In this document: positions 10,506-54,964 of the stretch, one piece after another
Layout: the number at the start of each line of letters is the position of its first letter
Numbering within the stretch: position 1 is the stretch's first letter
Origin: Eutreptiella sp. 'Long Island Sound 2002'
Taxonomy: Eukaryota > Euglenozoa > Euglenophyceae > Eutreptiales > Eutreptiaceae
Assembly: GCA_964036045.1 (NCBI GenBank)
Contig: OZ038382.1
Location: 134,716,442-134,780,441 of the forward strand
Direction: 5' to 3'
DNA: 64,000 nucleotides
Made by a program: the position numbers and the translations under genes
The notes under the pieces: model-generated
Told to the model about the DNA's origin: nothing
The model's database searches: none
Seen by the model: the letters and a program-made list of their open reading frames with translations, nothing else

Positions 10506-10539
10506 CGCAGCGACGCCCCACACACGCAACCTACAGCAC

Positions 10540-11895
10540 AACACACTGAGGAAGCACACCGGTGAACAGGAGCCAAGAGGCCCAAGACACCGCACACCAA
10601 ACACAGCACAGCGAACGAGCACACCGGTGAATAAGACCCAGGGGGCCAAGGACACTGTACACGCAACAAAGCACACCGAGCGGGCACACCAGTGAACAGC
10701 AGCCAAGAGGCCAAGGACACGGCACGCGAGACACAACACACAGAGCGGGCACACTGGTGAACAGGAGCCAAGTGGCCCAGGACACCGCACGAGCAAAGCA
10801 CAGGACGGAGCGGGCACACCGGTGAACAGGAGCCAAGTGGCCCAGGACACCGCACACACAACACAACTCCCGGAGCGAGCACACCGGTGAACAGGAGCCA
10901 AGTGGCCCATGACACCGCACCAGCACAGCAACGGACGGAGCGGGCACACCGGTGAACAGGAGCCAAGTGGCCCAGGACACCGCACACGCAACACAACACA
11001 CCGAGCGGGCACACAGGTGAACAGGGGCCAAGTGGCGCAGGACACCGCACACGCAACACAACGCACAACCTTGAGCAGGAGCCAAGTGGCCCAGGACACC
11101 GCACACGCAACACGACACCCCAAGCGGGCACATCGGTGAACAGGAGCCAAGTGGCAGAAGACACCGCAGCAGCAAAGCAACACACCGAGCGGGCGCAACG
11201 GTGAACAGGAGCCAAGTGTCCCAGCACACCGCACACGCAACACAACAGACCACGCAGGCACACCAGTGAACAGGAGCCAAGTGGCCCAGGACACCGCACA
11301 CCCAAAGCAACGCACCGAGCGGGCACACCGGTGAACAGGAGCCAAGTGGCCCAGGACACCACACCAACAAAGCAACGCACCAGGTGGGCGCACCGGTGAA
11401 CAGGAGCCAAGTGGCCCAGGATACCGCACACGCCAAGCAGCGCACCGAGCTGGCACACCGGTGAACAGGTACCACGTGGCCCAGGACACCGCACACGCAA
11501 CACAACTCGACGAGCGGGCACACTGGTGAACAGGAGCCAAGTGGCCCAGGACACCGCAGAAGCAAAACAACCCACCGAGCGGGCACACCGGTGAACAGGA
11601 GCCAAGTGGCCCATGACACTGCAGATGCAACACAACACCTTGAGCGGGCACACCAGTGAACAGGAGCCAAGTGGCCCAGGACACCGCAGCAGCAAAGCAT
11701 TGCACCGAGCAGGCGCATTGGTGAACAGGAGCCAAGTGGCCCAGGACACCGCACACGCAACACGACACACCGCGCGGGCACACCGGTGAAGAGGAGCCAA
11801 GTGGCCCAGGACACCGCACAAGCAAAACAATGCACCGAGCGCGCACACCGATGAATAGGAGCCAAGTGGCCCAGGACACCGCACACACGTGCACA
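10540..11895. repeat. About 62-bp minisatellite, roughly 21 units
   Basis: Consensus elements are gagcgggcacacc, ggtgaacaggagcc, aagtggcccaggacacc and gcacacgcaac, recurring every 58-64 bp. On the minus strand all three frames are open for 525-660 codons, but the implied peptide cycles through three different reading frames, because the unit length is not a multiple of three. That argues against coding. The region is T-poor on the plus strand. Confidence 0.9.
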
Positions 11896-17658: not shown

Positions 17659-17747
17659 TTCATGTGTTTCAACTGTCCACTTCTACCCTTACGTCGGTTA
17701 GAGTGGGGTTGAGGCAACCTCCCTCCAGGACTCTTCTCAGCAGGGGT

Positions 17748-19360
17748 CTACCTTGGCAGATTTTTGCGCAGGTACCTGTTTATGTGAGATTCGTTCTCCC
17801 TCTCCATGGCCAGTTCAATAAGAACATCGATCAAATCGTCGTAGGAGTGCGTCCAAGCTTCTCTCTCGGAAGTCTCCCTGCGGTTCTCCAGAGTGTTTGG
17901 GTGAATCTTCCCTACTAGCCAAAGCTGAGGCTCAGTAACACCATAGGAGGTGGGGTTCATACGCCCCATGAGCTCCTCCAGCTGCGCCACCCACTCAGAG
18001 ATACGGGCAGCTGATGGAACATCGGGCAGTAAAGGCAACACCTCCATTTCGGTACGGACACTCAAGTCCGTGTCGTAGAGTGGATACCTCTGCTCTAGTC
18101 TGTTCAGGAAGACGCCCACATTGAAGCTTCTGTTGATAGCAGTATTCACTTGCTGCTGGGGAAATCTGTTGATAAGTGTGAACTTTGTCTTGACGTCAGG
18201 ATGCCACTGACAAGTGAGGAGTAAAAATTCTGGATACTCCTCCGCCCAGTTGGGCAGTTTTTGGGGATTGAAATCAGGCAGTTCGGTCTGAAGGTTTGCC
18301 ATGGCGATAGCCTTCATTCCCCTACAGGGTACATTTGTGCCACCTGTTCGCCCTGAAGGGGGTGAGGGGTGTGTAATGGCCAATGGCGCCAGCGCAGGTA
18401 GGTCATAGCTCTTCATCTCAGCCTTGGAGGTGTCACCTACACTACAGACAGGCACAGTCCTCACACGGGGCTGCAAAGGGCGAGGGCAGGTGTCCACGGG
18501 GCAGCTGCGGACGCCTCTGCAGCTCCTCACGTCCCTAGTCAGTGGTGCTACACCAGGGGACATGGTAGGGGGGGGGCTTCTTCACAGCAGAAAGCCACAG
18601 TTTTGTTCTAAGTACCGCAGATAGTCCACTCAGGTTTAGGTCTTCTCCGCTTGCACCCAGGACCCTGGTGAGTAGCTCCACGGTTGCATCAAGACCCAAC
18701 TTAGGAGCTCCAAAGCGTAGGGACAAACCTCCCTCCACGCATACTGGTTCAGGAGACACGCCGCATGGGGAAGACCCTCGCTCCACGCAAAGAGGTGTCT
18801 TCGAGGGTGTACGTTCTCTGGGTACCCAGTTCGCGAATAACTCCGATGTGTGGGCCAACGCAGTGTCTCGCCTTAAAGTATCTCAAAGCCTCCTCCCCAT
18901 GATTTTCTGAACGTTCCGCCCATCATCCTCCCCTTCGCTTTTCCTTTTCTCCATGCTTTCATTTGAACCTTTGCCAACTTTGTATATGCAGGATCAGGAT
19001 CGGTTTCGGAAGGAGCACAGGGGGACCTTTCAGACCTGGTGACCCCGGAAGCTAAAGCAAGGGGTCCTTGCCTTCAAGTTGATCGAGGTTCTTCTGCGTT
19101 AAGAGGGGTGCCTGAATGCTTGGGCGTACTCCAGGGTCTATATATTGTTCATGTTCTTCCGCCCCTGTCGCTCGATGCTCTCCACGAGGGCTGGGACGAC
19201 GAGGGATGATTTCTTTTGTACTTAGTCCACTCAGGGACAATGCCCTGGGAGGCCCTGCCACAAGTTCCTCCATTGGCCGCGTTCGGATGGGCAGGGTTCG
19301 TGCACTGAGTGTAGCAGCTCTAATAAAATCAGTATTCTTCTTGTTTGCTTTAGGCCACAC
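17748..19360 (-). pseudogene. Ty3 copy 2 gag, frameshifted
   Basis: Gag of a Ty3-type element, the structural protein of the retrotransposon particle. It is read in three broken frames, at 19,360-19,052, 18,858-18,535 and 18,563-17,748. The last contains the best-conserved part, with LPDFNPQKLPNWAEEYPEFL, DLSVRTEMEVLPLLP and a C-terminal HSYDDLIDVLIELAMER, matching blocks in Ty3-A gag at 53,236-54,204. The N-terminal part matches ALSLSG and PRGEHRA of Ty3-A. At least two frameshifts make it non-functional. Confidence 0.85.
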
Positions 19361-19370
19361 GTTGGTCTGT

Positions 19371-19381
19371 CTCCGCTACCA
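19371..19381 (-). promoter_or_regulatory. Primer-binding site of Ty3 copy 2
   Basis: TGGTAGCGGAG on the minus strand immediately inside the LTR. It differs by one base from the Ty3-A site at 54,965-54,975. Confidence 0.75.
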
Positions 19382-20141
19382 GAAAGATTTTCTGGTTTGC
19401 CTTACTATGTATGTGTTTCTTTCTGCTTGCTGTCTTTGAAAATGAAACCCTGGATAGATTTTCCAAACTGCAAAATGACAAAGGAGACGTGCAAGACAAC
19501 CCAAATACGGGATCGAAATCAAAGTCAGGTAAAGATCCTTCCACTTCAAAGCATAAGTGGCAAAAGAGGGACGGCACAATAAAAAATGCAGGTCTAAATA
19601 AAAAGCTTCCGTCAATCATAAACAAAGCAATTGGTTTTATAGTGAAAACTGGCATAGTTCTGGCCCCAAGGATAGTCCCAACCACTTCACGTGCACACAT
19701 CGAGGTACAATGGAGTTGGTTAGGAATCAGGGGCATGTAGGTTGGGTCAGACACAGGATATGGCGTGGCCAGCTTGACCAAGCAACTGAATTCAGAATCA
19801 GTTCAAAGGTAGCACCACAATAAGTAGGTGAAACAATTGAGTATAGGGGTCCTGAGGTGGGTGACCACTAGGCTTAACATACAAGGACAAGGGCATGAAG
19901 TGCCTATTGCTTTTTGGTATAACCTCCATGAAGGAAGACGCCTCCGCTCATTTGAGGGGTCGGGGTGAACTTCACTGGGGGGCAAGGGTTATGACCCTAG
20001 TTACTTTGAAAAGTATACTTTAAGCTTCAAAAGAGTGATAAAACTGAATCAATGTTACTCTTCATTGCTTCCCAAAGAATAGGCGGGGCTTGACCTGGAT
20101 CAAGTACCCCACAAAAGACATGGTAGTGAGTTTGTCTTACT
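19382..20141 (-). repeat. 5' LTR of Ty3 copy 2
   Basis: About 760 bp, homologous to 54,976-55,737 and 43,986-44,751. It runs from GAAAGATTTTCTGG (plus strand) at the primer-binding-site side to TTTGTCTTACT at the outer end. Confidence 0.85.
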
Positions 20142-21980: not shown

Positions 21981-22680
21981 GCCTGCCCCCACACCGTGGT
22001 TGTTTTGTTAAAACGTTAGGGTTGTCTCTGTCGTGTCTCCGGGGGGTTGGGCGACTCCTGCATTCCCCCTGCACAGGTAAGAACAAGGTTGCAAGGTATG
22101 CTCGACGAATGGTGCACGTAGTGCGCACGTAGGGTTAGAGAAGACGAAGTGCTCGCGATGCATGTGCCAGATTCCGACATACACACGTTGCCACGCTTCC
22201 TTGTGCATGCATCCACCTTCCCTTCTCTTCACAGGTCCAAAGGAGACCTGTGTGCTCGTGTTTGCGTTGTTTGTGCGTTAAAGTAGGGTTGTCTTAGACG
22301 CTTAGGCTTGTTTTGCGTTGTGCGGTCGTCTCTCATTCGCCATTCCCTGTTCTCCTTTTCGCTGATGACAAAACAGGCACAACAGGAAGAATCGTGCAAG
22401 CCACAGGATGCAATTAAACGCTTAGGGTTGTTTATAACTCGCAACAGGGTTGTTTAAACGCTTAGGTTTGTTTTGCGTTCGCTTCACTTCGGCATTCACA
22501 CGATGCATGGTGAGTAAGGTAGGTAAGCCCAGGAGGAGCTCACCTTCTGGTTGAGTCAGTGTGGTTACAGTGGTATTGATCTTGCCTCCCTTCCCTGCAT
22601 GCGTGCACACGATGCATTAAAGGGATGAGACAGTAGGCCACGCGCTGTGCACGCGGTATGAACCCTTGCCAGGTTACCCA

Positions 22681-22827
22681 GGGCTTCGCCCTACGTTCCA
22701 TAAGGGAACGGGCGAAGTCCTCAAGCTTGCTTGCTTGCAACTGGGTTCAGGAACAGTGTATTATAGGGCACACTAAGAAGCGTATAATACGTGGAGTGTG
22801 TCTTGGTTCCTCCGTCTTGAACCCAGT
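22681..22827 (+). ncRNA. Structured RNA in repeat Y, copy 1: hairpin plus pseudoknot domain
   Basis: Hairpin H1 pairs 22,681-22,690 with 22,711-22,720 and 22,694-22,699 with 22,705-22,710, with loop ATAAG. A 19-nt linker follows. Stem c pairs 22,740-22,749 with 22,818-22,827 (10 bp, perfect). Inside it, stem d pairs 22,750-22,754 with 22,806-22,810. Stems a (22,758-22,765 with 22,783-22,790) and b (22,767-22,774 with 22,795-22,802) cross each other, giving an H-type pseudoknot. In the copy at 46,236-46,382 these helices persist although many bases differ. Compensated changes are two in H1, five in c and three in b. The strand is inferred; the fold works on either strand except for wobble pairs. 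I recognise no known RNA family. Confidence 0.7.
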
Positions 22828-23013
22828 CCATTGGCTTTTGTTGTACAGGTGGGAGGGTCAGGGTGAACTGGTGCAGTCCCTTGAGCCGTGCTAAAATATA
22901 CGGCGCTGATCGCACAATCAATTGACTGCGCCTCAGCCAGGAGTTGCGAGGGCAGTTCGACTCAGTCGACATCCGCGCTGTGCACGCCACCTGTGCGCCC
23001 TTCCCCTCCAAGC

Positions 23014-23049
23014 CCTAGCAGGGAAACGTGTTATGACGTCCCTGTTAGG
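23014..23049 (+). ncRNA. Second conserved hairpin of repeat Y, copy 1
   Basis: CCTAGCAGGGA (23,014-23,024) pairs with TCCCTGTTAGG (23,039-23,049). In copy 2 (46,593-46,628) two adjacent bases on the 5' arm are swapped, AG to GA, turning A-U then G-U into G-U then A-U, so the helix is kept. Confidence 0.55.
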
Positions 23050-23189
23050 CCACAGCTGCTTAGCAGCGCTGTGTTCTCTTGTCTCCTTCACAGGAGGGTC
23101 ATTAGGACCCACGACGTTATCTTCAACACCACCTAGTAGAGCGTGCGTGTAGGAGTGGTAGTCCTGCGTGGGGGCGTGAGCCAGTAGCA

Positions 23190-23565
23190 GTAGCGCTCGC
23201 CCACCAGGATGGTGCCACTGTAGGGTGTGTAGGACCTGTAGTGTGTGGGCACAGGGCCACAGAGCATGCAGGCCAAGGGGACAGTGTTGGGCCCCCACGA
23301 CCACACATCCGCGCCCACGGCATGTGGGTGACGGACCCCAACAGTACGCCCAGAGGGCGGGCAGTCGGGGGAGGGGGAGCACCTGACCACAGACGCCCCT
23401 CACAACGGCGGAAGGCACCCCCCCGGAAGACGCCCTTCCGCCACCCCCACAGCGAGCAACGCCGGCCCGCAAGGGCGCACGCTGTGGGGCCGGGGCTGGG
23501 TCCCCACGCCCGCACCGACCGCACCCGGGACACACGTGTCGCAGAGCCCCGGCTGCCCGGGCTGT
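23190..23565 (+). repeat. Partial unit of the 420-bp satellite
   Basis: Matches most of one higher-order unit of the array at 25,965-28,165 in the same orientation (blocks gcatgcaggccaaggggac, gggcgggcagtcggggg and gcgagcaacgccggcccgc). A single diverged stray unit. Confidence 0.85.
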
Positions 23566-25964
23566 ACCCCTTCCACCGTTTCCCGTCACTCCTATGGTCT
23601 TGCTTCTCACCAGGTTCTGCATGATCTTGCCCTATCCTGCACAATTTCCCACAAAAAATAGTAAAATAGGCTCCTTCACACAAATCCTGATCCCTTGCAA
23701 TAGCCAATCCCAGGTACAATAGCCAAATCAAAAAAATCCACACTGAGGGCTTCCAAGGATGTTTGAGGTCCCGCGTTGACACTCAACAACTCCTTTCAAT
23801 ACGCCGGTCGTCTCACAGTGCACACGGAGACACGGGCGTTCGGCATGTACATGGAATAGCACCAATAAGGGAGCCCTGAAATTGGCATATGAACACATAT
23901 CAAGCATAGTTGGGGAAGGATGGAAACATACACAATCACAGCCATAGACCCCTGATTCCCTGGACTCAGGACCTTCCCTTGACTCGCCAACATGATGCCC
24001 TGAACCATGTCAAATAAGATGGCTAAATGGCATGTGTCAAAAGTCACTTCATACACCCCAAAAATGTGTTCCCTCCCAAGCCTCTAAATCCTAGCCCAAT
24101 GGGGGAGGTGGCGTGTCATGGCCTAGAGTGGCACTCAGCACCATGCCCTACCCTGACATAACCTTGATTGGACTTGGAGTCGATTGGGCTTGGAGAGGTG
24201 CCCCATGATGATGACCTCACAACATGGCAAAATCAGGCAAATCACACCATAATGCCCAAAAATCAATTATATACTCAAAAACGCATACGGCAAGTACTCA
24301 AATGCTCCATGCATGTGTCAAACCGGAGGATGATTTACAAGGGTGATATAGACCAGAGGTTCGGGCCCAAGAATATCCCAACATTGGCTCTCAAACCCCT
24401 CCGGATATACACATGCCATGCTTCACAAGTCAACTCATGAGTTTGAGACCTAATTTTGTGAGGCCTCGTGTGCCAAGCAAAAGCGACCACGTGATCTGGC
24501 ATTTGGTGAGGTACAACACCGAAGCATATGCCAACATATAAGCAGCATACCATAGTTCACGGATCTCTAGGCACTTTACTGTTAGCACGACCAGTTGAGC
24601 ACATAAAATACAAAAATGAGCATAAAAAGAGGTCAAAAACATGCAAATAATGCCAAAATCAAAGTAATCACAATAGTATATAATTTTGCTCGGCCATGGT
24701 ATCAACATATGGGTCAAAGCACAATTGCTTGAAACCATTTGCAAACGATTCCCCCACTTGGATCCCCACATGAACGCATCAGGACACCTTCGAACCTCCT
24801 CCCAACACGCACCATTGAAATGGGAAAATTGATAGTGGCGCTTGTGGGTCGCTCCGTAAACCTTCCCACATGCACTATATGAGCGGGAGACATAGTCTAG
24901 CGCTATGGAGCTCACCATTGGAACATGGGAAAAGTTCTTGCCACGTATGACTCCCCATATCTTCCTACAAACGGAGATATATAACATGGGCGTGAGCATA
25001 GCAAAGCACATACCATCCATATGACACATACCCTTAAAAGTGGCTCCCACCATGGTATGCCATGCCCCTCCGTGGACATAACTTCACGCTAAAAATACGT
25101 AGGAACCCAAGGAAAGTTTCTATGCAACACCAACCCTCATGCAGTACACTCGAAAGTCGCATTAAAATATTCGGTTGCATGGTGCAAGGGGTATATATCA
25201 CTTTCTACCCTCTTAACTCTCATCCCTTGCTACAGCGGGCATGTGTACACATCAAAGGCGTTTGATGCTTTCCAAATTAAGTTGAGACCAAGGCGGTTCC
25301 AACCTAATTCTCGAAATTGGTATTCCTCGCCGTGAGCTGGAGATATGACCTTTCAAAGTGGCCTCACGAATCAATTTTGTTTCGACTATATCTCCAAGAA
25401 AAATGAAGGAGACAACAAAAGGAAGGTTGATTCGTGATCGGGGAAAGATGTAGGACCACTCGAAATTCATCATATCCAGTGCTGCGACCTCGAAGTCGAA
25501 AATCTGATTTTGAATGTCTGAAAAAATCGGATTAATTTTGCGAGTGTATAACATGAAAATTGCGGAAGCAACGAACCCGTTACTGATGAAATCTGACCCT
25601 TCATCGGGGTTTCCGCCAAAAAATCTGGAAATAACAGTTAACCAATCGGTTACCGCAAAATTGCGAGCCAACTGACAGTCGCCGATACATTGACAATCAG
25701 AACGGACAGCCCAAAAATTACGGAAAGATTATGATAAAAAACCGGGTTGATTCCTGATATTCTGATATATAAACCGTAGCCGGCGGCGCCTTGGTATTGA
25801 ATATGGCCGCTCATAGCTGGAATGGCCATACCTATCACACCATCACATCAGGTTAGGTCAGGTGGATGGGAGACTACGATTTCAGCCAATGGCGGCTTGC
25901 CGGCACATAGATACACACTCCAAGTGACCCAAAGATGGCCACAGGGGTCCGAACCGGCTTCACA
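23566..25964. other. Intergenic, no gene recognised
   Basis: AT-rich DNA. The longest frames are 207 codons at 24,430-25,053 (minus) and 139 codons at 25,252-25,671 (minus). Neither has a motif I recognise, and both look like chance opens. Some catgcc and atatct words resemble the 2.2-4.4 kb region. Confidence 0.5.
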
Positions 25965-28165
25965 GCAACTGACACCAGACGCCCCTCGCAACGCTGGCAG
26001 AGCACCCCCGCCCCGGACGCCCCCCCCACCACCCCCGCGACACGCAGCCCCCACAGGGCATGCAGGCCAAGGGGACAGGGTTGGGCCCCCACACCCACAC
26101 ACCCGCGCCCACAGCACGTGGGTGGCGGACCCGAACAGCCCGCCCAGTGGGCGGGCAGTCGGGGGAGGGACAGCGCCTGACCTCAGACGCCCCTCACAAT
26201 GGTGGAAGGCACCCCCCCCGGGGACGCCCTTCGGCACCCCCACAGCGAGCAACGCCGGCCCGCAAGGGCGCACGCTGTGGGGCTGGTGCTGGGTCCCCAC
26301 GCCCGCACGGACCGCACCCAGGACACACGGGTCGCGGAACCCCGGCTGCCCGCTCCAGAGGACAGACGGCCGGGGGAGGGACAGCGCCTGACACCAGACG
26401 CCCTTTACAACGGTGGCGGGCCAGCCCCCCCGGGGACGGCCTCCCACCACCCCCGCGGCACGCAGCCCCCACAGGGCATGCAGGCCAAGGGGACAGTGTT
26501 GGGCCCCCACACCCACACACCCGTGCCCACAGCACGTGGGTGGCGGACCTCAACAGCCCGCCCAGTGGGCGAGCAGTCGAGGGAGGGACAGCGCCTGACC
26601 TCAGACGCCCCTCACAATGGTGGAAGGCACCCCCCCCGGGGACGCCCTTCCGCCACCCCCACAGCGAGCAACGCCGGCCCGCAAGGGCGCACGCTGTGGG
26701 GCCGGTGCTGGGTCCCCACGCCCGCACCCACCGCACCCGGGACACACGGGTTGCGGAACCCTGGCTGCCCGCTCCAGAGGACGGGGGGCCGGGGGAGGGA
26801 TAGCGCCTGACACCAGACGCCCCTCACAACTGTGGCAGGCCACTCCCCCCGGGGACGGCTGCCCACCACCCTTGCGGCACGCAGCCCCCACAGGGCATGC
26901 AGGCCAAAGGGGACAGCGTTGGGCCCCCACATCCACACACCCGCGCCCGCAGCACGTGGGTGGCGGACCTCAACAGCCCGCCCAGCGGGCAGGCAGTCGA
27001 GGGAGGGACAGCGCCTGACCTCAGACGCCCCTCACAATGGTGGAAGGCACCCCTCCCGGGGACGCCTTTCCGCCACTCCCACAGCGACCAACGCCGGCAC
27101 GCAAGGGCGCACGCTGTGGGGCCGGTGCTGGTTCCCCACGCCCGCACCCACCGCACCCGGGACACACGGGTCGCAGAGCCCCGGCTGCCCGCTCCAGAGG
27201 ACGGGCGGCCGGGGGAGAGACAGCGCCTTACAACAGACGCCCCTCACAACGGTGGCAAGCGACCCCCCCGGGGACGGCCCCCCACCACCTCCGCGGCACG
27301 CAGCCCCCACGGGGTAGGCAGGCCAAGGGGACAGTGTTGGGCCCCCACACCCACAAACCCGCGCCCGCAGCACGTGGGTGGCGGACCCCAACAGCCCGCC
27401 CAGTGGGCGGGGAGTCAGGGGAGGGACAGCGCCTGACCTCAGACGCCCCTCACAATGGTGGAAGGCACCCCCCCCCGGGGACGCCCTTCCGCCACCCCCA
27501 CAGCGAGCAACGCCGGCCCGCAGGGGCGCACGCTGTGGGGACGGTGCTGGGTCCCCAAGCCCGCACCGACCGCACCCGGAACACACGGGTCGCGGAACCC
27601 TGGCTGCCCGCTCCAGAGCACGGGCGGCCGGGGGAGGGACAGCGCCTGACACCAGAAGCCCCTCACAACGGTGGCAGGCCATCCCCCGAGGGAACGGCCC
27701 CCCCACCACCCCCGCGGCACGCAGCCCCCACAGGGCATGCAAGCCAAGGGGACAGTGTTGGGCACCCACACCCACACTCCCGCGCCAACAGCACGTGGGT
27801 GGCGGACCCCAACAGCCTGCCCAGTGGGCGGGCAGTCGGGGGAGGGACAGCGCCTGACCTCAGACGCCCCTCACAATGGTGGAAGGCACCCCCCCCGGGG
27901 ACTCCTTTCCGCCACCCCCACAGCGAGCAAGGCCGGCTCGCAAGGGCGCACGCTGTGGGGCCGGTACTGGGTCCCATCGCCCGCAACGACCGCACCCGGG
28001 ACACACGGGTCGCGGAACCCCGGCTGCCCGCTCCAGAGGACGGGCAGCCGGGGGAGGGACAGCGCCTGACACCAGACGCCCCTCAGAATGGTGGAAGGCG
28101 CCCCCCCCGGGGACGCCGTTCCGCCACCCCCACAGCAAGCAACGCCGGCCCGCAAGGGCGCACAG
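25965..28165 (+). repeat. Satellite array, 420-bp higher-order unit (two 210-bp monomers)
   Basis: The word gcatgcaggccaagggg recurs at about 26,060, 26,479, 26,898, 27,317 (variant) and 27,741, a spacing of about 420 bp. Each unit consists of two diverged halves of about 210 bp that align with each other and with the 210-bp monomers at 41.4-43.3 kb. The right end is a clean junction into LINE-B at gcgca/cag (28,160-28,166). Stops are rare, so frames of up to 480 codons cross units. These are not credible genes. Confidence 0.9.
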
Positions 28166-30535
28166 GCCAGAATCGACCGCCTCCCTCGGGTCCTCAACCA
28201 CGCCCAGAGGAGGCAACTGGAAAAACGCCCCTTCACCATCCACGAAGTCCGGAAGGCCATCCACAGTCTCCGGCAACACAAAACCCCAGGCCACGACGGC
28301 CTCCCTGCGGAGGCATACTACCACCTCCCCGCCCACCTCCTCCGCATCCTCGCCCACCGCCTCTGGGACATCGTCACGGGGCAGACCCCCCTGCCAGCAG
28401 ACTGGGCAAACGTTGTCCGCCCCCTCTACAAAAAAGGGGACTGGGCAAACCCGGACAACTGGCGCCCCATAGTCTGTGAGGTCACGGAGGTCAAAATCGT
28501 CTGGACCATCCTCCAACGCCGCATCCGCCCCCACCTGGACCCCCACATACCAGCAAGCCTCTGGGGGGCCATCCCAGGCCTGTCTTCACACAAGGCCATC
28601 TTCCTCCAGGACACCATCGCAGACATGGACCCGGTGGACCTCATCATCGCCTCCCTCGACGTCAAAGGAGCCTTCCCGAACACCCCCTGGCTCCTTCTAG
28701 AAGCGCTGTGGAAACGCCTAGGCCTCCCCTTCTACAACTTCGCCTCCGGCTACATCGGCACCCGCAAATACACGGTACGCACTGGAGCAGGCCTCACCCC
28801 CTTCCTGGAGCCAGGCAGCGGGGTCCCGCAAGGGGGAGCAGAGGGCCCCTTCCTGTACCTTCTAGTGACGCTCCCCCTGGCCCTCGCAATCGAGCAGGAT
28901 TACCCGGCCTACGCACCCTACCCCCTCCTCTCCCCCCTGTTGGGCTTCGCGGACGACACCAACCTCACGGTCGCGCACACCCCACACGAACCCCATGCCC
29001 CGGAACCCCGGCCAACGGTCACCCAACAGGCCAATGACTTACTGGACGTGACCATCTCCTACCTCTCCCACAACAACCTCATCGTCCACCCCACAAAGTC
29101 AGTGGCCATGATCAAGGAGTCTGCCACACCCCCCACCCTAGGGCCACAAGGGCCCCCCATGCAAGTCGTGACAACCACCACCCACCTGGGGGTAATCCAG
29201 GCCGCCAACCCTGAGGACGCCACCCTCCCTCCCAAGTTGCAATCACACCTCGCCCATCTCCTCGGATATGCGTCCCCGACCACCAAGGCCCTCCCCCTGT
29301 CCCACCAGAGCCTGGCGTACTACCTCACCGGGGTCTTGAACGCCTCCATAGGCTTCCAAGCACTCCACCTGACACACCCCACCACCGCCCTCGAGCCGGC
29401 CACACGCGCCGTGACCAAGGCATGGGCAGCACACGGGGGCTGGCCCACCTCCATACCCACCCGCGCCATCCGAGCGGCATGGCCCGACTATGGGGAGGCC
29501 ATAGGGGACGAGGTGAAAGCGGCCTACACAAGACACACCGCCCTCCTCCTCCACCGCATGACCCACAACCACTCACCGGAGGTCCGCGAGGTCACCGCAA
29601 TCCGCCTTCAAGCCGCACAACGGGCCCGCAACACATGCCCGCGCTGGGTACTCCACCAGACGGGCATGCCCACCAACATGAACACGCGCCTGTGGAACCA
29701 CCTGCAGCTTCTCCTCCCATCCCCATACCATGCCATACTCACCAACCACACGTGCCCAGAGGAAGGGCCTCTAGCGGTCCTCTGCGGGGACCTCCACCAT
29801 CACCCCAAGGGCACCATCCGCACCATAGACCTTCTCGGGGCCTCCATCACCGTAGTATACGTCACCCTCCCCCAAATGCGGGTCCTGCACCACAGCGGGG
29901 CACACCACACCCCCTTTCTACAGCTTCCCGAATGGCCTCAATACCGCCTCTTCCACCAGTACCTCACGCAGACGGCAAGAGCAGCGGGACACACTCTGCC
30001 GGGAAGCAAAGACATGCACACAGCCTACCGAGAATTCACAAAGCAACGACCCCGACCCATCCCAGCGACACCGCCCTACGCACCCACCGGCTCGAAACAC
30101 GAACCCCTCCCCCCGGTGACGGGCCCAGTCCCACCACTAACCCTACTACTGGCCCCGAATGAAGCCAAACCCACGCAGACCACCGTCATCCACCACGGGG
30201 CAAAATGGCGCATACCGAAACACCACATGACCGCCCGAGACCTACCACGGGTCCCCCATGACTCCCAGAGCATGCCACGCACATGTTGGGCCTGTGACCC
30301 CGAGGCACCAACCACACCATGGCCCGTACTACACCTCATAGCACGCCACCACACCCACCCCACAACCCACCTACCACCACAGGCCTACGCATGGGTAGCC
30401 CCATGGTTCCACCGCACCGACAGCAACCCCACGGTAGCATGGAACCCCGACCACGCGCCCAAATGGCTGTTCACCACTACACCCACATGGCCCCGCCCCG
30501 ACCCGGCAGGGGTCGCCATCCGTTACAGCATGTAG
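28166..30535 (+). pseudogene. LINE-B reverse transcriptase region
   Basis: RT of a GC-rich non-LTR element. Visible in order: HKTPGHDGLPAEAYYHL, LYKKGDWANPDNWRPI (about 28,420), motif A IIASLDVKGAF (about 28,645), motif B GSGVPQGGAEGP (about 28,815), motif C LLGFADDTNL with an intact Asp pair (about 28,943), a TKSVAM block and HLGV. The domain begins right at the satellite junction, without the endonuclease or linker that should precede it. The linker of another copy is at 63,353-64,000 on the minus strand. The frame ends at TAG 30,533-30,535, but the protein clearly continues in the next frame from 30,537, so one indel breaks the polyprotein. It is open upstream only to an ATG inside the satellite at 28,088. 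Confidence 0.9.
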
Positions 30536-40865: not shown

Positions 40866-41383
40866 TATATTTTCCGCCAGGGCTCGCGCTATGCATTCCT
40901 CGTTGACGATCTTTATGCTGTCACCTTGTGCGGCACATTTTTCTCTGTGGTGCATTTTATTGCGCTGTTGTGTTGGTGTTTGCGTGAGGCCTCGCGCAAA
41001 GAAGGGGTGCCAAAAAGTGCTTCTTGTCGTGCAGCATGCAACATGGTTTTCGAAAACGGGTTTTCCAAAAGATTGAAAGCTCATGGGTGTTTTCATTGCA
41101 AAGCATAAGTGGTATAGGAAACAAAAAGTCGTGGTTTTCCCAAAAAAGAACTTCATTTTGGTGGAAATAAATCATTTTCCCGGGCAGTCGGTTTTGTTGA
41201 AAATAAAGGAAAATGGACCAGTTAATTGCTTTTCACAGGACTTTTGGTTCTTGTGTTTTAGGTCTCCCCCAAAAGGACTATTTTTTCGCAGTGCCGTGGA
41301 GAGGCAGTTTTGGGCGCATTTGGACCATGCAACTTGAGCCGCCTAAGGGGGGAGCTCGTGCCTTACTGAGGGGCGATCGGGGT
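40866..41383. other. Non-coding spacer
   Basis: T-rich DNA with no significant frame between the acidic ORF and the 210-bp satellite. Confidence 0.6.
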
Positions 41384-43345
41384 CAGGCGCTCACCCTCCC
41401 CCGGCAGCCCGTCCTTTCGGCAGGCAGTCGGGGTCTGCTGCTAACAGGCTGTGGGTGCGGACCTTGGGGCGTGGGGACCGGGGATTGGCCCCTTGGCTTG
41501 CATGCTCTTCCAGACGTAGCGCGCCGTGGGGGTGGCAGAATGTTGCCCGGAGGAGGCTCTTCTTGCTGTGGTGGGGGGGGGGGTCTGGGGTTAGGCGTTT
41601 GTTCTGCCCTGGCTGCCCGTCCTTCGGGCAGGCAGTTGAGGTCCGCTTCCCACAGGCTGTGGGTGCGGACGTGCGGAGGTGGGGACCCGGCACTAGCCCC
41701 TTCGCTTGCATGCCCTTCCGGACATAGCCCGCCGTGGGGGTGTGTGCAGTACGTTGCCGGGAGGGGGCTCCTCTCGCTGTGGTAGGGGGCGTCGGGGGTT
41801 AGGCGCTTGCCCTCCCGCGGCTGCCCGTCCTTTGGGGAGGCAGGCGCGGTCTGCTGCACTTGTCCTTTTGGGGCGAAGGGTGCACGTGTGTTGGCCCGTC
41901 ACTGAAGCCACAACGCACGCTCTTGCCAGCCGGCGTTGCACGCTATGGGGGTGGCAAGAGACCCTCCCCGGGGGGTGGCTCTGCCTTCCCGAGGGGCGTT
42001 TGCAGTTAGGCGCTCACCCTCCCCCGGCTACCCATTCTTTGGGGAGGCAAATGGGGTCCCCTGCCCACTGGCTTCGAGTGCGGGTGTGCTGGCGTGGAAA
42101 CGCGGCACTTGCCCCTTGGCTTGCATGCCCTTCTGAACATAGCGCGCTGTGGGGCTGACCAGAGGTTGCCCGGGGGGCGGCTCCTTGCGCCTTGGTAAGC
42201 AGTGTCTGAGGTTAGGCGCTCACCCTCCCCCGGCTGCCCGTCCTTTGAGCAGGCAGTCGGGGGCCGCTGCCAACAAGCCGTCTGTGCGGGTGTACGGGCC
42301 CGTAGACCCGGCACTTGTTCCTTGGCTTGTATGCCCTTCCATACATAGTGAGCCCCGGGGGTGGCAGGAGGTTGCCCGCGGGGAGGCTCTTTTCGCCTTG
42401 GTGAGGGGCGTCGGCGGCTAGGCACTGACTCTTCCCCAGCTGCCCGTCCTATGGGCAAGCAGTCAGGGTCCGCTGCCCACAGGCCGTGGGTGCGGTCGTG
42501 CGGGCGTGGGGACCCGGCAGTTGCCCCTTGGCTTGTATGCCCTTCCAGACATATTGCGCTGTGGGGATGGCGGGAGGTTGCCCGGGGAGGGGCTCCTCTC
42601 GCTGTGGCCGGGGACGTCTTGGATTAGGCGCTCTCGCTCCCCCGGCTGGCCGTCCTTTGGGCAAGCAGTCGTAGTCCGCTGCCCGTGTCTTTCGGGCGCG
42701 GGGGGTGTGAGTGTGGGGGCCCGTCACCGACGCCAAAGCGCACGCTCTTGCGAGCCAGCGTTGCACGCTGTGGGGATGGCAGGAGGGCGTCACTTAGGGG
42801 GGGGATGCCTCGTGCCTTCGTGAGGGGTGTCTGAGGTTGGGCGCTCGCCCTCACCCGGCTACCAGTCCTTTAGGTAGGCAGTTGGGGTCGGTTGTCCACA
42901 GGCCATGGGTGCCTGTGTGCGGGCGTGGGGACCCGGCACTGGCCCCTTGGCTTGCATGCCCTTCCGGGCATAGCGCGTCGTGGAGGACGCAGGAGGTTGC
43001 CCCGGAGGGGGCTCCTGTCACCGTGGTGAGGGGTGTCTGGAGTTAGGCGCTCTCCCTCCCCCGGCTTCCCGTTCTTTTGGGCAGGCAGTAGCGCTTCGCT
43101 GGCCTTGTTCTTTGGGCGCGGGAGGCGCGGCCGTGTGGGCCTGTCACCGACCACACAGAGCACGCTCTAGCGAGCTGGCATTGCACGCTGTGCAGGTGGC
43201 AAGAGGGCGCCCCGGGCGGGGGGCGGGGGGCTCCTGCCTTCGTGAGGGGTGTCCAGGCTGGGGCGCTCCCACTCCCCTGACTGCCCGTCCTTCCGGCGTG
43301 CGGCCGGGGCCCGCTACCCTCTGACTCTGGGTGCGGTGTACGGGC
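41384..43345 (-). repeat. Satellite array, about 210-bp monomers
   Basis: The unit start ttaggcgctcaccctccccc (and variants) recurs near 41,384, 41,595, 41,800, 42,005, 42,213, 42,417, 42,625, 42,836, 43,044 and 43,257, a spacing of 204-213 bp. Monomers align with both halves of the 420-bp unit seen elsewhere, in opposite orientation to 26-28 kb. No higher-order pairing is obvious here. Confidence 0.9.
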
Positions 43346-43439: not shown

Positions 43440-43985
43440 CGGCTGGGTGTTGCTTGGGACCTTCTCTCGTGCCGTGGTTTGGTTCGTGTTGTGCGCGCTT
43501 CCCGGGTTTGCGGCACCCGGTGGCTGTTGTTGCTTGGCACCTGTTGATGTGCCTTGGGTGTGGCCGGCGGCGTGCATCTCTGGCATGTCTCGCCGCGTTG
43601 GTGCGCCGCGCCTCGTCCAGTCCGGTCGCTCTCGGTGCTCCGGTCGGCTTTCCTGTCGCCGTGCTGCCTTCCCCTACCGGGGGGTTTTGCCCCCGGATTT
43701 ACTGGGCGGCTGTGCAGGGCACGTGGAGGCCGACGAGAACCCGGTTCATTGTGCTTGCCGCTGGCCCCTGCGAGGCAGGAGCGCTGGGCTTGCTTCGTGT
43801 CGTACCCGTTCGGGGCCCCGCTGTGGGGTTGTCCCTGGCGGGTCCCTCCGGCGTCCTTCTCGGGCTGCGTGCACTGCGGTGGTTTGGCGTGTGTGGACTT
43901 GGTCACTCGCGCGTACGGTTTCCCGTGCCATCCGTCGTTCCATGGGGGCCTCGGCTGGTGCACCGGGGCTGTTTTGTTTGGACAC
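43440..43985 (+). repeat. X-family repeat, left part (interrupted by Ty3-A)
   Basis: Matches the reverse complement of about 9,820-10,290. It ends in GACAC (43,981-43,985), the left target duplication of Ty3-A. The sequence resumes at 55,738. Confidence 0.85.
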
Positions 43986-44751
43986 AGAAAAGCTATTCTG
44001 GTTTGCCTTGCCTGTGATGGTGTTCCTGCTTGATGGTTTTTGATTGATGAAGACCTTGTTGGATTTTCCCAAACTGCAAAACAACAAAGGACAGGTACGT
44101 GCAAAGCATCCCCAATGCCGGTTCGAAATCAAAGTCAGGTAATAATCCTTCCACTTCAAAGCATAAGTAGCAAAGAGGGGCTGCAGATAAACAAATGTAG
44201 ATTTAAATACACAGCTCCAATGATTTCTAAACAAAATTGGTGAGCTTATGTGTGAAAACTGACATGACTCAGGTCCTCAAGATAGTACCAAGCACTTCAT
44301 GTGCACTCTTTTGCATACAATGGAGCTGGCTAGGAATCTGGGGCAAAGGAGGTGGGCCAGACACAGGATATGGCTTGGGTAGCATGGCCAAGCAACTCAA
44401 TTCAGAATCAGTTAAATAGTAGAACCACAATAAGTGATATAAACAATTGAGTATAGGGGTCTCGAGCCGGGGGACCACTAGGCTTAACCTACAAGGCCCT
44501 AGGCAAGGAATGCCTACTTTATTTCGGTATTACCTCCATGAAGGAAGATACCTCCGCTCAGTTGAGTGGTAGGGGTGAACTTCATGGGGGGCTAGGGTTA
44601 TAACCCTAGTTACCTTGAGAAAGTGTACTTCAAGCTTCAAAAGAGTGATAAAAATGATTAAGTGTTAGTCTCAACATCAGGCCAAGGTTTAGGGGGGGCT
44701 TGGCCTGGATCAAGTACTCCAAGAAAGACATGGTAGTGACGTTTTCTTACC
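43986..44751 (-). repeat. 3' LTR of Ty3-A
   Basis: Homologous along its whole length to 54,976-55,737, roughly nine bases in ten identical. The outer end abuts GACAC. The inner end abuts a G-rich tract (minus strand CCAGGGTGGG, 44,752-44,761) that is a plausible polypurine tract. Confidence 0.85.
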
Positions 44752-44987
44752 CCACCCTGGAGTACCAGTTGATCAAGCTAGTAGGACCAAGGAAAAACGC
44801 TCAAATTCCCCCAAGATTACGTCAGAAAATGCATCAAACCAGCCAATGACATTCCAATCAGCTCATAGAAGCTTACCACACTGTAGGTACCCTTGAAAAA
44901 CAGTGTAATGTACCGTGAATGATGTCCCTTCGATGCGGCATTCCTCAAAAGTCGCCAACGTGCGGTCAAAACATTTGGTAAAAATAT

Positions 44988-45064
44988 GGGGGTAGTGGGG
45001 TTTGAACCCAGGACTCCCTCCCTAGAGTACACATGCTTGCCCACTAGGGTACAGCCGAACACTC
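44988..45064 (-). other. tRNA-derived sequence (not a functional tRNA)
   Basis: The minus strand has a perfect B box (GGTTCAAACCC) and an A-box-like segment (TACCCTAGTGGGCAAGC) at tRNA spacing, but no acceptor stem can be formed. Consistent with a tRNA pseudogene or SINE head inside the 3' region of Ty3-A. Confidence 0.5.
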
Positions 45065-45539
45065 TAATGCAGACAGTGATTGCTGTATAAGCAGCGTTCT
45101 AGTAAATGTCCTGACCGAAGGCCAGGGCGGAGCAATACTCCCAATGGAGGACACAAAACTGCAGGAGCTGAAAAGAATGAAAAATTAAACCAACAGGGAG
45201 TGAATTCTGTGGTTTAGCGAAAGGGGTAGCAATTTAAGAAGTCCAATCGCTAAAAATTGACGAAAAGTCGTTGGAAATCGTCTTTTTTAGTCCAAAACAT
45301 GAGGTCGCAGACAAGCGCAACAGAAGCGCACTACCAACAAGATGTGCGGAAGCGTAAACTGCTCCTAGATAGGAAGGTATGAGCCGTGCTTTTTAGACCT
45401 TTTAAAAGAAATTTTTGCACAGTTGCACCAAAAAATTTATAAACCTTAGGAAGAAATATTTAACAGACAACCACACAACAGAGCAGGCGGACAACCTGCC
45501 TCTCAGGTATGTTATTGTCATGTCACACGCATGCATTGC
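45065..45539. other. Non-coding stretch within Ty3-A
   Basis: A-rich sequence between the tRNA-like element and repeat Y. No ORF or motif recognised. Confidence 0.5.
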
Positions 45540-46235
45540 CTTCGTGTTGTTAGTTTCCTTAAAACGCTAGGGTTTTCACCGCTGCGTTCGTTGGGAGTTT
45601 GGGCGTTCACTTCCCTTGCTCTGCACAGGTCAGAACAGGGAACCAAGGTATGTTCGACAAATGGAGCACGCAGCGCGCACGTAGGGTTAGAGTATGCGCT
45701 GTGCTTGGGATGCATGTGCCTAATCTAGGCATCCACACGTCGTGGCGCTTTCCCTGTGCATCCATCGGCTCTTCCCTTTTCTCCACTGGTCAAAAGGGAA
45801 ATTGCCTGCTTCTGGTTGCCTCGCCGTAGCGCTAACATAGGATCGTTTAAAACGCTTAGGCTTCGTTTTGCTCTGTGCAGCTGCTCGCCATTCCCTCTCT
45901 TTCTCCTGCAGGAAGCAAGGTGAGAAGTGCATGCATGATACACACGATGCATTAGGTGCTTAGGGTGGTTTATAAATCGCTCTAGGACTGTTGAAAACAT
46001 TTAGGGTTGCCCTTGCGTTCGATGTCCTTCGGCATACACATGATGCGTAGTGAGTAAGGTAAGTAAGCCCAGGAGGAGCTCACCTCCTGGTTGAGGTTTG
46101 CTGTGATTGGATGAATTGGGTTAATATTAGGAAAAATTCTTGGTCTTCGCCTCCCTTCCCTGCATACACATGATGCATTAAAGGGCCGCAGGCCACGCGC
46201 TGTGCACACGGTATAACCCTTGTTTAGGCTACCCA

Positions 46236-46382
46236 GGGCTCCGCACTACGTTCTATAAGAGAACGGGCGGAGTCCGCAAGCTTGCTTGCTCGCAGGACGG
46301 TTAGAGGACAGTGTATTATTTTCCAACCAAAGACGAGTATAATACAGCGAGGTTGGTTAGGTTCCTCAGCCGCTAACTGTCT
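46236..46382 (+). ncRNA. Structured RNA in repeat Y, copy 2
   Basis: This has the same architecture as 22,681-22,827. H1 is 46,236-46,245 with 46,266-46,275 and 46,249-46,254 with 46,260-46,265, loop ATAAG. Stem c is 46,295-46,304 with 46,373-46,382. Stem a is 46,313-46,319 with 46,339-46,345. Stem b is CCAACC (46,323-46,328) with GGTTGG (46,351-46,356). One H1 pair and the two ends of stem b are lost relative to copy 1. All other helices hold despite sequence change. Confidence 0.7.
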
Positions 46383-46592
46383 TTCATGCGCCTTTGTTCT
46401 CAGGTGGGAAACGGAAAGGGTGATGTGGTGCAGCAGCAGTTGCCTTCGGCAACTTCCCAATTTTCGTCCAAGCTAAAAAGGGCGCAGATCATACAAACAA
46501 CAAACTGTGCCTCAGCCAAGAGTGGCGGGGACAGTCCGACTTCATCATCATCCGAGCTGTGCACGATGAGAGAGCACTCCTTCCCTCCAAGC

Positions 46593-46628
46593 CCTGACAG
46601 GGAAACGTGTTCTGACGTCCCTGTTAGG
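46593..46628 (+). ncRNA. Second conserved hairpin of repeat Y, copy 2
   Basis: CCTGACAGGGA pairs with TCCCTGTTAGG. Compare 23,014-23,049. Confidence 0.55.
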
Positions 46629-46690
46629 CCACAGTCGCTTAGTAGCGCTGTGTTCTCTTGCAATTTCACAGGGGAGCCAGTAGGGCTTGT

Positions 46691-47246
46691 GACTTCTTTG
46701 CCATGGCGACCCAGTAGCGTGTGTAGGGGTTAGGGTCAGCAAGCCTGGCAGCCACTGAGTGTGGTTGTGCTCACCCTGCCTTCCAAGGATGATGCTGGCA
46801 TTAGTGAGTGTAGTATAGTGGTGTCTCCTGCTCCGCGTGCCTTTCCTCGCGGGCAGGGCAGTGTGTTGGCTTTTGGCCATTAGCAAAATAAGCGTTTTGT
46901 ATGCCCTTAGCACACTTGGCCACCCCTCCCCTCTACTAGGTAGGGCTTTTGCCGTCTTCCCCAAAAGATAGGCACCAGCACAGAAATTGGGCGCCCTAGG
47001 AGTGGTAATAGTACCTGACTAGGACCTTCGGTTCAACATCAGCGAAGCCCAAAAGGGAGCCGTGTCGGGGAGTGAAGCAAAAAACACGGAGACATACGTA
47101 GCACCGCCAAGAAGGGTAGAACCCCATGGGTGTAGACCAGTTAGGGGTCCTAATTGTGGGCACGCTTGTCCCCAAGGAGGGTGGACACACCTTGCTTCAC
47201 AGCACCTTGCTTGTCATTCCCCCCCGGACTAGGAAGCCACCGTTCT
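46691..47246. other. Non-coding 3' region of Ty3-A
   Basis: No ORF of note. A G-rich tract on the minus strand near 47,220-47,228 looks like a polypurine tract but has no LTR beside it. Confidence 0.5.
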
Positions 47247-48030
47247 TCATTGGCGCCCCAAGGTCATAACATTAGGGCATATCCCATGCAACACGTGGTC
47301 AATAAGGCACACGGTTGCTGGGTGGCTGCAAACCTGATAAGCGGCCACCTGGTTCACGCTGGAAACCAGAGGCATGGGACTGCAGGGCACAACCTGGGCA
47401 GGGGCTGGACTCCAAAAGCAGCGGATGTGCAGGTGTTTGGAAAGCCGATCCCGATTGGGGGAGGGTGTTAGTACAATTACTGAAACTGGAGCCCTACCGC
47501 AGTCCTGAGCCTGTCCTGGTACAGACTGATTAGGTCTAGTTGTCAGCACAACAGTGCTCACCGCCCCTGGGAGGTTAGAAACAAGAGGGGGTTGCGAGTA
47601 AAGGGCCTCAACTGTGAGTCCCAATCTGGGGGGAATCTGTTCACGTAGGCCACCGTGTTCAGGTGACCCGCAGTTGAGGTGGTCGTATGCAGGTGGGCAC
47701 CTCGGACTGAACCGACCCCACGGGTACCTAGTTCAGCGCGTGGGCACGTCTTTGGTACTACACTGCGCGGAGAATGTGTGGTGGGAGGCTGGGGCAATAG
47801 GACGCACCGACCATTGGGCTGCAAACAAGATAAGCGGCGTGGTGGGGTTCTGGCGATCCTCAGTGTTGCTTCCCTCATGGTGCGGGGGAAGTGTACCTCC
47901 GGAGGGAGCCAAGACTCCTGCAGGAGTGGCCCGAAGGAAACTCCCAAATGGAGGAGGGGATGTCTGGGGTATACCACCGCTTCCTGAAGCTTGCAACCTC
48001 CTCAGTTTGGTTAGCCACAACAAATAGATA
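47247..48030 (-). pseudogene. Ty3-A post-pol ORF region, function unknown
   Basis: Overlapping minus-strand frames of 115-139 codons (48,080-47,733, 47,977-47,558 and 47,624-47,247) follow the end of pol. Composition is Pro/Ser/Thr/Arg-rich (for example LPPEVHFPR, PSPNRDRLSKHLHIRCF). They may be one degraded additional ORF. No envelope-like signal peptide or transmembrane pattern, and no known motif. Confidence 0.35.
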
Positions 48031-48045
48031 GGCACAAGGAGATTA

Positions 48046-49463
48046 GGTTTTCTTCTTACGCTGGGACAGAGTCTCAGCACGGGTTAGTAGCTGTCTCCTG
48101 TTGTTCTCAACGAGGTAGGAACGAAAAATGGGGTTAATACTCCCATCTCGCTGTATAAAGGCGGACACGGGCTCCCAGGTTGCCTCAGATAGCCCATATC
48201 CGTCCTACAGGGAAAGGAATTTCCAGCCCTGTTTATACTCGTGGCGTGCAATACCTGCAACCACGTAGTAGCCATTGAATGCCATCTCATCGGCAGTCAT
48301 TTCTTGGAGTTTGTCTGCCTCCTGAGGGTTGGCAGCGTTCTCCAGGTCGATGTCTCTCTGTCAGACAGACACCACTCGTCGCAGGACAGTTCGTCAGGCG
48401 AGTGGTAATGTCTCAGCTCTTTAGGTGCACAAAGCAGCTCTCCACCTAGGCGGGGACTGCACCTCACATGGATCCTGGATCCTTCTATCTTTATAATGCG
48501 GTAAGGCCCAAAGTAAGGGAACTGCAGACTGTTGCGGGGCCACGTGGGCAATCGGGAGTGGTGTAGGAGCACAAGGTTGCCTACCTTGAAGGTGGCAGGA
48601 CGTCTCTTGCGGTTACGCCTAGTCAACTCACGTTTTCGAAGGTGTTTCAGGTTAGCTCTAGCCAGTTTAACCAGGTCCTGCCTATGCTCCAGCCAGTCCC
48701 CTACGTGGCTCTTGTAGTCCTCTGGAAAACGGGTTTTGAAGAACCATGCAGGACGCCCCCAATGGAACAGTTCGGGGGGGGTGTAGCCAGTTGAAGAACT
48801 TTCTTGAGAGTTCATGGTTAGGACAGCGCAGGGTAACAGGCGCACCCAATCTTTGGTACGCACCTGTTTCATCAGAATCCTGAGGTTTTGCTCCAACACA
48901 CAGTTCTGTCTCTCGCACAGAAGTTTGGAAGTGCGAGTGTAGGGCACACCTGTGGTTACATAGACGTTCAGGGCGTCCAGTACCTGCTTGTACCATCCGG
49001 TGTCACTCCAGATACGTACGTCCTCCTCAGAGTGCACCTCCTTAGGTGCCCCATAGTGTTCGAACCATTGTTCAACCAAAATTTTCACAGTCTGTTTGCC
49101 TGTGATCTTTTTGTTGCAGCGGAACACACGGGTGAAACGGTTCAAGCCACAGGTGACAACCAAAGAACTGTCATAACCACCAAACTTATGCAGACCGTGG
49201 ATGAAATCCACGTACAACAGAGAATCAGCACAGTAGGGGATAGGCAGACTGGAGACCAGTCCCGGGTCACGTGAGTTGCTCTGTTTGCTGGCGTGACAGC
49301 CACAGGAGTCCACTATGGACTGCATACGACCATGTAGCTGAACAAAGGTTAGTTCAGGAGTAAAAGCGCTCCCTAAGGAACTCAACAGACCGGTTGCACC
49401 CTGTGTGCCCAGAACTGAGATGGGCCCACTGTAGGCAACCATCCAGTCGTGCCTCAGGCACAA
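48046..49463 (-). pseudogene. Ty3-A integrase with C-terminal chromodomain
   Basis: Integrase inserts the cDNA into chromosomes. The zinc-binding region (HLSSGHTGC, then CGCHASK) is split between frames near 49,345. The core has LLYVDFIHGL (first Asp), VHSEEDVRIWSD, where the expected second Asp position reads Glu, and CERQNCVLEQNLR (Glu). A GPYRII-type C-terminal fold follows (FPYFGPYRIIKIEGSRIHVR). After a frameshift near 48,300, a chromodomain-like segment (YYVVAGIARHEYKQGWKFL, then ATWEPVSAF) contains an in-frame TAG. Chromodomains target chromovirus integration to heterochromatin. The gene is broken. Confidence 0.85.
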
Positions 49464-49498
49464 TTATACGGTCTTCATACTACAGATATTGGTTATCT

Positions 49499-50309
49499 TT
49501 ATACCAGCGGTCGCCGTCTATCAGGCGTGCCTCTAGGCCATAGGGAGTTGAGTACGCATTTGCACTCCGCATGGTAGTCTCTCAGACTCCAGCCCTCCAG
49601 TACGCCTGCAGTGCGCAAGGAAAGGTCCAGCTGGACGTCCATGCGCTGGAACGCCTCTTTGGCCAACGCCTCCCAGCTCTCACCTAAGAGGGCGTCGAAG
49701 TTGTTACGAGATATGTAGTGAGCCATCTTGTTCTTTATGCCCTGTATATGGTTGAGAGTCAGCTTTAACTGACTGAGGTAGGTCCACAATCGCTTCAATT
49801 TCGCCTTTTCAGGATGGGGACCCTTCTGAAATGTTCTCACAGGCTGTTGGTCACAGAGCCAGACGATAGGGTTGGTGCCAAGCAGACGGGACTGGGAAGA
49901 AAGCATCAGCATCCCAGCCCGGAACTTCTGGTCTTAGGTACTGTAGTTGGATCGTGCTTGATTCCACTTCCAGGTCCAGTGCCCATGCGGCACTAGACAC
50001 GATTCATTGGCAGGTAGTCATGCTTCAAGCTACCATCGCGGTTCAGACCTGAAGTTTGAAACTGGCAGTGAGACACCTCAGCGGGGTTAAGCTCCTACCA
50101 CTGGTATAGGGCACCCCCCCCCCCTACATCAGAGGCATCTGTGACGAGTATTATGTTGCCTTTAGGGCGGGGTACCCCCAGGCAGTTGGTAGAGGAGATT
50201 TTCTTCTTCAACTCCTGGAAACAGGCCTCCTCCTTGTCGGCCCCCGCCAAGGGTTGGTCTTTTTTGTAAGGTCAGTAAGGGGGGCTGATTAATACGTTAA
50301 ATTGTGGAT
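49499..50309 (-). pseudogene. Ty3-A RNase H region
   Basis: On the minus strand, starting at LTYxSAPLTDL (about 50,305), comes the RT-RNase H connection, then LVTDASDV (first Asp) through a G-run, and in the 137-codon frame 49,912-49,499 SQSRLLGTNPIVWLCDQQPV and IQGIKNKMAHYISRNNF (the usual ADxLSR block). Multiple stops and shifts lie between 49,912 and 50,280. Confidence 0.8.
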
Positions 50310-54863: not shown

Positions 54864-54964
54864 TGGTTGGGACCTGATTGGCAGGGTGTTCGCACTCAGA
54901 GTGACAGACTTGGAGAAGTTGTGGGTTTACTGGACTTGCTTTAGCTCTGCTCCTGGGACTGCAA

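Follow-up and report, generated by a model that had tools for sequence, protein, structure and literature searches.

What keeps base pairs in place between two diverged copies of a repeat, here called Y, in the genome of Eutreptiella? The window analysed is a stretch of 64,000 nucleotides, and positions below are window positions. It holds two copies of a domain, 22,681-22,827 and 46,236-46,382, which are equal in length. An earlier sequence-only reading had located both, proposing that they share a hairpin and a closed domain containing an H-type pseudoknot, and a check of the window sequence agrees with those coordinates.

A paired domain in two copies

Compared by eye, closing stem c has ten pairs in both copies, of which five are changed on both sides, two become G-U, three are unchanged and none is broken. 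Stem b keeps six of its eight pairs, three of those with double changes, and hairpin H1 shows two double changes and one loss between copies. All of this had been described correctly. Stem a, which had been called invariant, does have eight pairs, seven in copy 2, but is only nearly invariant across copies. The elements of the domain are as follows.

22681-22720, plus strand: hairpin H1 of copy 1, with its stem at 22681-22691/22710-22720 and inner helix at 22695-22699/22705-22709, placed by sequence, double changes in both helices and MFE folding
22740-22749 with 22818-22827, plus strand: closing stem c, copy 1, with both-side changes at 7 of 10 pairs and 8 branch-mapped compensations
22767-22774 with 22795-22802, plus strand: stem b, copy 1, with both-side changes at 4 of 8 pairs
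22780-22784 with 22788-22792, plus strand: apical hairpin e, copy 1, loop UAA, placed by covariation and MFE folding
22758-22765 with 22783-22790, plus strand: stem a, copy 1, nearly invariant, without covariation; it would make a pseudoknot, and its 3' strand is common to e
46236-46382, plus strand: domain copy 2 (H1 46236-46275; c 46295-46304/46373-46382; b 46322-46329/46350-46357; a 46313-46320/46338-46345; outer pairs of e lost)

H1 and the c-b-e stem-loop are joined by the linker GCUUGCUUGCUUG. On the plus strand, MFE z-scores against shuffles are -7.8 for copy 1, -3.7 for copy 2 and -5.8 for a further locus, L018, and only -1.5 for a piece (L059) that is without the 3' side of stem c. 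Folding beats shuffles on the minus strand too (z -5.2 for copy 1, -4.2 for copy 2). Near-invariant stretches, unpaired or in loops, are present in the domain alignments, and in one subfamily (L034, L036, L047 and their relatives) an additional small hairpin interrupts the 5' strand of stem c.

Selection on pairing

Alignment A1 contains 27 copies, drawn from 37 distinct sequences by leaving out 11 near-identical rows of copy 1's subfamily and adding L041; the motif-picked copies come, among the matches listed, mostly from one contig (C1). The stems of the sequence-only reading are paired in 94.6% of the cells of A1. Their covariation score, 0.353, exceeds that of shuffles (0.106) and of controls with slid partners (0.104 at most). 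Double changes are seen at 4 of the 8 pairs tested in the H1 stem, 1 of 5 in inner H1, 7 of 10 in c and 4 of 8 in b. The pair types and the number of double-change pairs are not above shuffles, 218 and 88 of 500 of which reach them.

Changes were also mapped to branches and compared with a tree-aware null in which each branch's substitutions are kept (500 simulations); here and in the all-against-all test, the 11 rows with the insertion had stem c masked over its outer 5' half. Compensatory events number 17 in the 27 copies, whereas the null averages 1.11 and never exceeds 5. Five of the 17 are in H1, four in b, eight in c and none in a. Broken steps over all stems number 36, where the null mean is 61.7. 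They lie clearly under the null in H1 (15 vs 25.3) and a (1 vs 13.2), but not in b (8 vs 10.9) or c (12 vs 12.3), where 101 and 271 of the 500 simulations give a count that is no higher. Many copies therefore seem to be decaying in b and c. An all-against-all, R-scape-like test gives only one pair with E<0.05, pair 123-148 of stem b.

Unpaired substitutions in b and c, which the sequence-only reading held would count against it, occur at about the null rate, but 96% and 88% of the cells of these stems are paired and double changes are many, so that on balance the pairing stands. Twelve newly collected copies from copy 2's subfamily were judged by eye: 9 retain stem c without a lost pair, 10 retain the six-pair core of b, and in one of the twelve (L097) a pair in each of these two stems has changed on both sides. 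Together with the failure of the slid controls, the excess of compensations bears out the proposal that the compensated pairs reflect selection on structure. Base-pairing selection is supported in H1, c and b, and in a hairpin, e, that is absent from the fold first proposed.

Hairpin e and the proposed pseudoknot

Hairpin e was analysed in alignment A5, which comprises 40 of 43 distinct cores (L047, L053 and L100 were left out for indels). Its covariation score is 0.349 alone and 0.413 jointly with stem b, compared with 0.131 when shuffled in each case, and slid controls fail. The outermost pair of e occurs as GU, CG or AU and is paired in 37/40 cores, and the second as CG, UA, UG or GC, paired in 35/40. 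Pair types and the number of double-change pairs in b and e are not above shuffles. Covariation is absent from stem a in the same kind of test, with a score of 0.018 that equals shuffles, though 93.4% of its cells are paired.

The 3' strand of stem a lies inside hairpin e, so a and e cannot both form in full at once. In single-strand folding, b and e form together in copy 1 and L018, and stem a forms in copy 2, which no longer has e's outer pairs. Stem a would make an H-type pseudoknot with b, which covaries, but a itself lacks covariation and competes for its 3' strand with the covarying e; as drawn, the pseudoknot is not supported. The supported fold is H1 followed by a long nested c-b-e stem-loop. 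By our own estimate, the 8-nt complementarity of the near-invariant strands of stem a is unlikely to arise by chance, and stem a is therefore kept, at most as a possible alternative state.

Repeat Y and its conserved core

The domain is part of a longer conserved region within Y.

21995-23260, plus strand: repeat Y, copy 1, common to a chromovirus and a 419-bp-array element, delimited by common match ends
45553-46684, plus strand: repeat Y, copy 2, delimited by self-comparison of the window
22480-23120, about 640 nt, plus strand: conserved structured core of Y, copy 1, delimited by identity bins and further hairpins

In the 2.28-Gb genome, a hairpin-e pattern has 4025+4069 = 8,094 exact matches and a pattern built from both strands of stem a has 2792+2797, with 0 in controls for either; the core motif has 0 matches in viral contigs. 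When 15 copies are compared in bins of 40 nt, identity is 0.67-0.90 over a stretch of about 22492-23171, 0.44-0.58 upstream of it and 0.63-0.71 downstream of 23172. Double changes also mark hairpins at 22885-22904, 22925-22956, 23012-23050, 23051-23073 and 23096-23110. An upstream GGTA..TACC hairpin has some broken pairs and no double change and is not claimed. A protein-coding core was rejected, since its indels are not in threes.

In most of the flanking 200-nt bins, two chromovirus groups share 66-92% identity, with less at indels, and over 22900-23110 they share 81-94%. Over 22480-22840 they are 95-100% identical with dips at 22540-22600; the loci were picked as best matches to 22681-22827, which inflates identity there, and 22480-22680 lies outside that query. 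This pattern suggests that the Y module has been exchanged between element families by recombination.

Y lies antisense in a chromovirus family

Copy 2 of Y is held by a long terminal repeat element.

43985-55737, minus strand: Ty3/gypsy chromovirus that contains copy 2 in antisense orientation (LTRs: 3' at 43985-44750, 5' at 54974-55737)

Its RNase H-integrase part is at 48756-50309 on the minus strand. An RT piece at 50318-50776 lies on the plus strand, through an internal inversion or rearrangement, so this element is rearranged. Both the PBS (TGGTAGCAGAG) and the PPT are ordinary-looking, the former resembling what we take to be an initiator-tRNA site; a self-encoded primer was rejected on this account. 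The window's own element has no Pfam match in the frames tested. In a relative, L014, RVT_1 and RT_RNaseH score above the Pfam cut-off and rve and Chromo below it, and the listed homologues carry PF00665 and some of them PF00385. On these sequence features (LTRs, RT-RNase H-integrase, PBS and PPT, with Chromo below cut-off), the host element is classed as a Ty3/gypsy chromovirus. A second, diverged chromovirus is probably represented in part by 17696-20141, which matches 53263-55737, up to and including the 5' LTR, at 73%.

Copy 2 occupies part of the interval from pol to the 3' LTR and runs antisense to the greater part of pol. Twenty loci over 8 kb, from the 40 best matches to copy 1, were sampled for this arrangement. 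An LTR lies 1.4-1.5 kb to the left of Y in 11/20, and in 8 of those 11 pol was found, each time on the minus strand; two motif-picked loci (L054, L055) have the LTR too. The other 9/20 belong to two other repeat types, 3 by a 149-bp tandem array and 6 by a 419-bp array. The 149-bp-array type consists of 141-bp direct repeats and Y, and in its stretches L010/L033 and L021/L032 chromovirus pol was not found beside Y. One locus of the 419-bp type (L019) also has a 0.37-kb LTR piece. In the window, copy 1 adjoins a 419-bp array, one unit of which starts directly after it. The antisense place of Y is thus the same in several element lineages, and Y occurs in two further repeat types. The suggestion that the repeat grew out of a non-coding RNA gene gives way to this: Y is part of a Ty3/gypsy family, in antisense, and of two other repeat types.

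The window is repetitive elsewhere as well. GC-rich tandem arrays of the 419-bp unit or a related 206-bp unit occupy 25962-28115, 61037-63357 and 41369-43089, in both orientations, and a 65-bp tandem array of about 21 copies spans 10537-11886. Open frames with RVT_1 lie on the plus strand at 28088-30532 and 93-2228, and the repeat pairs 4403-6093/12470-14174 and 35101-35890/36107-36895 are 90-97% identical.

The structured strand

Read on the plus strand, H1, b and c together contain 32 G-U against 4 A-C in 10 subfamily representatives. In A1, the counts are 49 vs 4 in H1 and 26 vs 2 in b. Stem c, in the 16 rows without the insertion, has 8 G-U vs 10 A-C, and 9 of the A-C fall at the outermost pair, 86-180, which copy 1's subfamily probably does not form; this pair was left out of the 27-copy covariation, branch and 10-representative counts. 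Stem c of copy 2 is misaligned in A1, and the automated counts for that row (2 mismatches, 1 A-C) understate its pairing. Among tree steps away from Watson-Crick pairing, 15 lead to G-U and 6 to A-C. The alifold energy of the core is -326 on the plus and -289 on the minus strand; for the downstream part alone the two are close (-121.7 vs -117.7), and hairpins 22517-22548 and 22925-22956 show no lean to the plus strand. The G-U and A-C counts point to the plus strand as the structured one, but because G-T pairs form in first-strand cDNA too, they do not separate it from RNA.

Proposed role of the module

We propose, with about even confidence, that Y is a structured non-coding RNA module lying opposite gag-pol in a Ty3/gypsy chromovirus family and exchanged between families. 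An antisense transcript would pass through Y, and the folded core (H1, the linker and the c-b-e stem-loop) would work as RNA. The near-invariant flank of the c-b-e stem-loop could re-pair as stem a. The core would probably act by binding a host protein that governs the stability, processing or export of the antisense transcript, and recombination would spread favoured versions between element families. Observations that weigh against this proposal include the two hairpins without a plus-strand lean, the broken steps in b and c near the null and the one RT piece on the plus strand. A bolder form, which we hold only tentatively and consider rather unlikely, makes the module bistable: e and its near-invariant rival a share a strand, and the RNA would switch between them to control the antisense transcript, in thousands of copies spread over a single family of LTR retrotransposons and two further repeat types, with favoured versions sweeping through lineages by recombination.

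Alternative explanations

The core also carries splice-like signals.

22510-22526, plus strand: tandem motifs resembling 5' splice sites, where the core begins, in 7/15, 12/15 and 7/15 copies at 22510, 22519 and 22523
22833-22848, plus strand: pyrimidine-rich tract with CAG|G, immediately downstream of stem c, in 12/15 copies

A second pyrimidine tract with a CAG site, at 23093, is found in 14/15 copies, and the minus strand has one splice-like motif of each kind. The genome has 1601+1682 exact matches to a query that we take to be the Euglena spliced-leader sequence, and 0 to reversed controls.

Y might accordingly be a structured spliceosomal intron, or a trans-splicing outron segment, of the antisense transcript, the fold placing or hiding splice sites and a/e re-pairing perhaps switching them; we judge this doubtful, and somewhat less probable than the bistable form. 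In its favour are the plus-strand 5' motifs and the tracts ending in CAG at 22848 and 23093, the near-identity between chromovirus groups that begins near 22480 and falls at about 22840, and the use of spliced-leader trans-splicing in Euglena, to which both the genome matches and PMC11170887 point. The signals themselves fit less well. As described in PMC11170887, GT-AG introns of E. gracilis start with GTGTG and have C-rich tracts, and in nonconventional introns CCAGG at +3 to +7 pairs with CCTG at -9 to -6. These introns resemble Y in that both have intron-like signals and the nonconventional ones also use RNA structure. Here the 5' motif reads GTGAGTAAG/GTAGGTAAG and T predominates in the tract; against the E. 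gracilis consensus (PMC11170887), CAG is conserved while the 5' site and tract depart. CCAGG and CCTG words occur in the core. The 3'-site criterion is loose, since 23018 and 23021 on the plus strand pass it too; the identity drop at 22840 is partly due to indels, with 90-94% reached again by 22900-22960; and covarying hairpins run on past both CAG sites. As the signals fit the E. gracilis consensus poorly, we limit our commitment to a structured antisense RNA module, which would most likely act by RNA binding and in processing or stability.

It is improbable, in our estimation, that the fold acts as DNA, with hairpins of first-strand cDNA serving in plus-strand synthesis or integration. Given the orientation of the element, the plus strand of Y corresponds to minus-strand cDNA, and DNA tolerates G-T; but the domain is also kept in repeats beside which chromovirus pol was not found, and the PBS and PPT look ordinary.

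Slightly less probable again is an element of the sense genomic RNA that acts in export or packaging, by analogy of position with CTE/RTE-type elements. Those elements of retroviruses and IAPs are structured, work post-transcriptionally and act in the sense genomic RNA. Y likewise lies between the last gene, pol, and the 3' LTR, and its minus strand beats shuffles in folding, but the G-U pattern favours the antisense strand, as does the alifold energy of the core.

A self-cleaving ribozyme of an unassigned class is quite unlikely on the sequence comparisons made. Ribozymes (HDV-like, hammerhead, retrozymes) do occur in retroelements and, like Y, can be conserved structured modules common to different mobile elements; near-invariant unpaired or loop stretches, as in the domain, would also suit one. 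Y differs in having no recognised catalytic core and no match at threshold to any family in Rfam. None of the 4227 families of Rfam release 15 matched the window or 9 related loci at gathering score, and three matches in 22000-23300 at an E-value threshold are all far below gathering score, none in 22681-22827. At curated thresholds, the scan agrees with the earlier statement that no RNA family of this layout was known to that reader, and a search of open-access journal papers found no such RNA named by title. The ribozyme, priming and packaging roles suggested at first gained no positive support; the PBS resembles the usual binding site for a tRNA primer. Telomerase RNA was considered for the order of elements and the linker GCUUGCUUGCUUG, both suggestive, and rejected, the telomere repeat being TTAGGG, which is found at 8 of the 16 contig ends read.

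That pairing reflects only relatedness or palindromic repeats, without selection, can practically be discarded: subfamilies that are independent are few, the all-against-all test has one significant pair and b and c break at near-null rates, but 0/500 tree-aware simulations reach the observed compensations and slid controls fail for the A1 stems, for b with e and for e alone.

A proposed structured antisense module among LTR elements

The structured antisense RNA module that we favour has a partial precedent. LTR elements can have antisense transcripts, such as Ty1AS RNA, which like the plus strand of Y runs opposite to gag-pol; we know of no comparable compensated fold in such transcripts. 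Covariation support is known to us for few structured RNAs in LTR retrotransposons, and for none that lies on the antisense strand. With thousands of copies in several subfamilies, the fold of Y is open to testing by comparison. If Y is transcribed, it would represent a new RNA family and would give a handle on antisense retroelement RNA in a large, repeat-rich euglenid genome.
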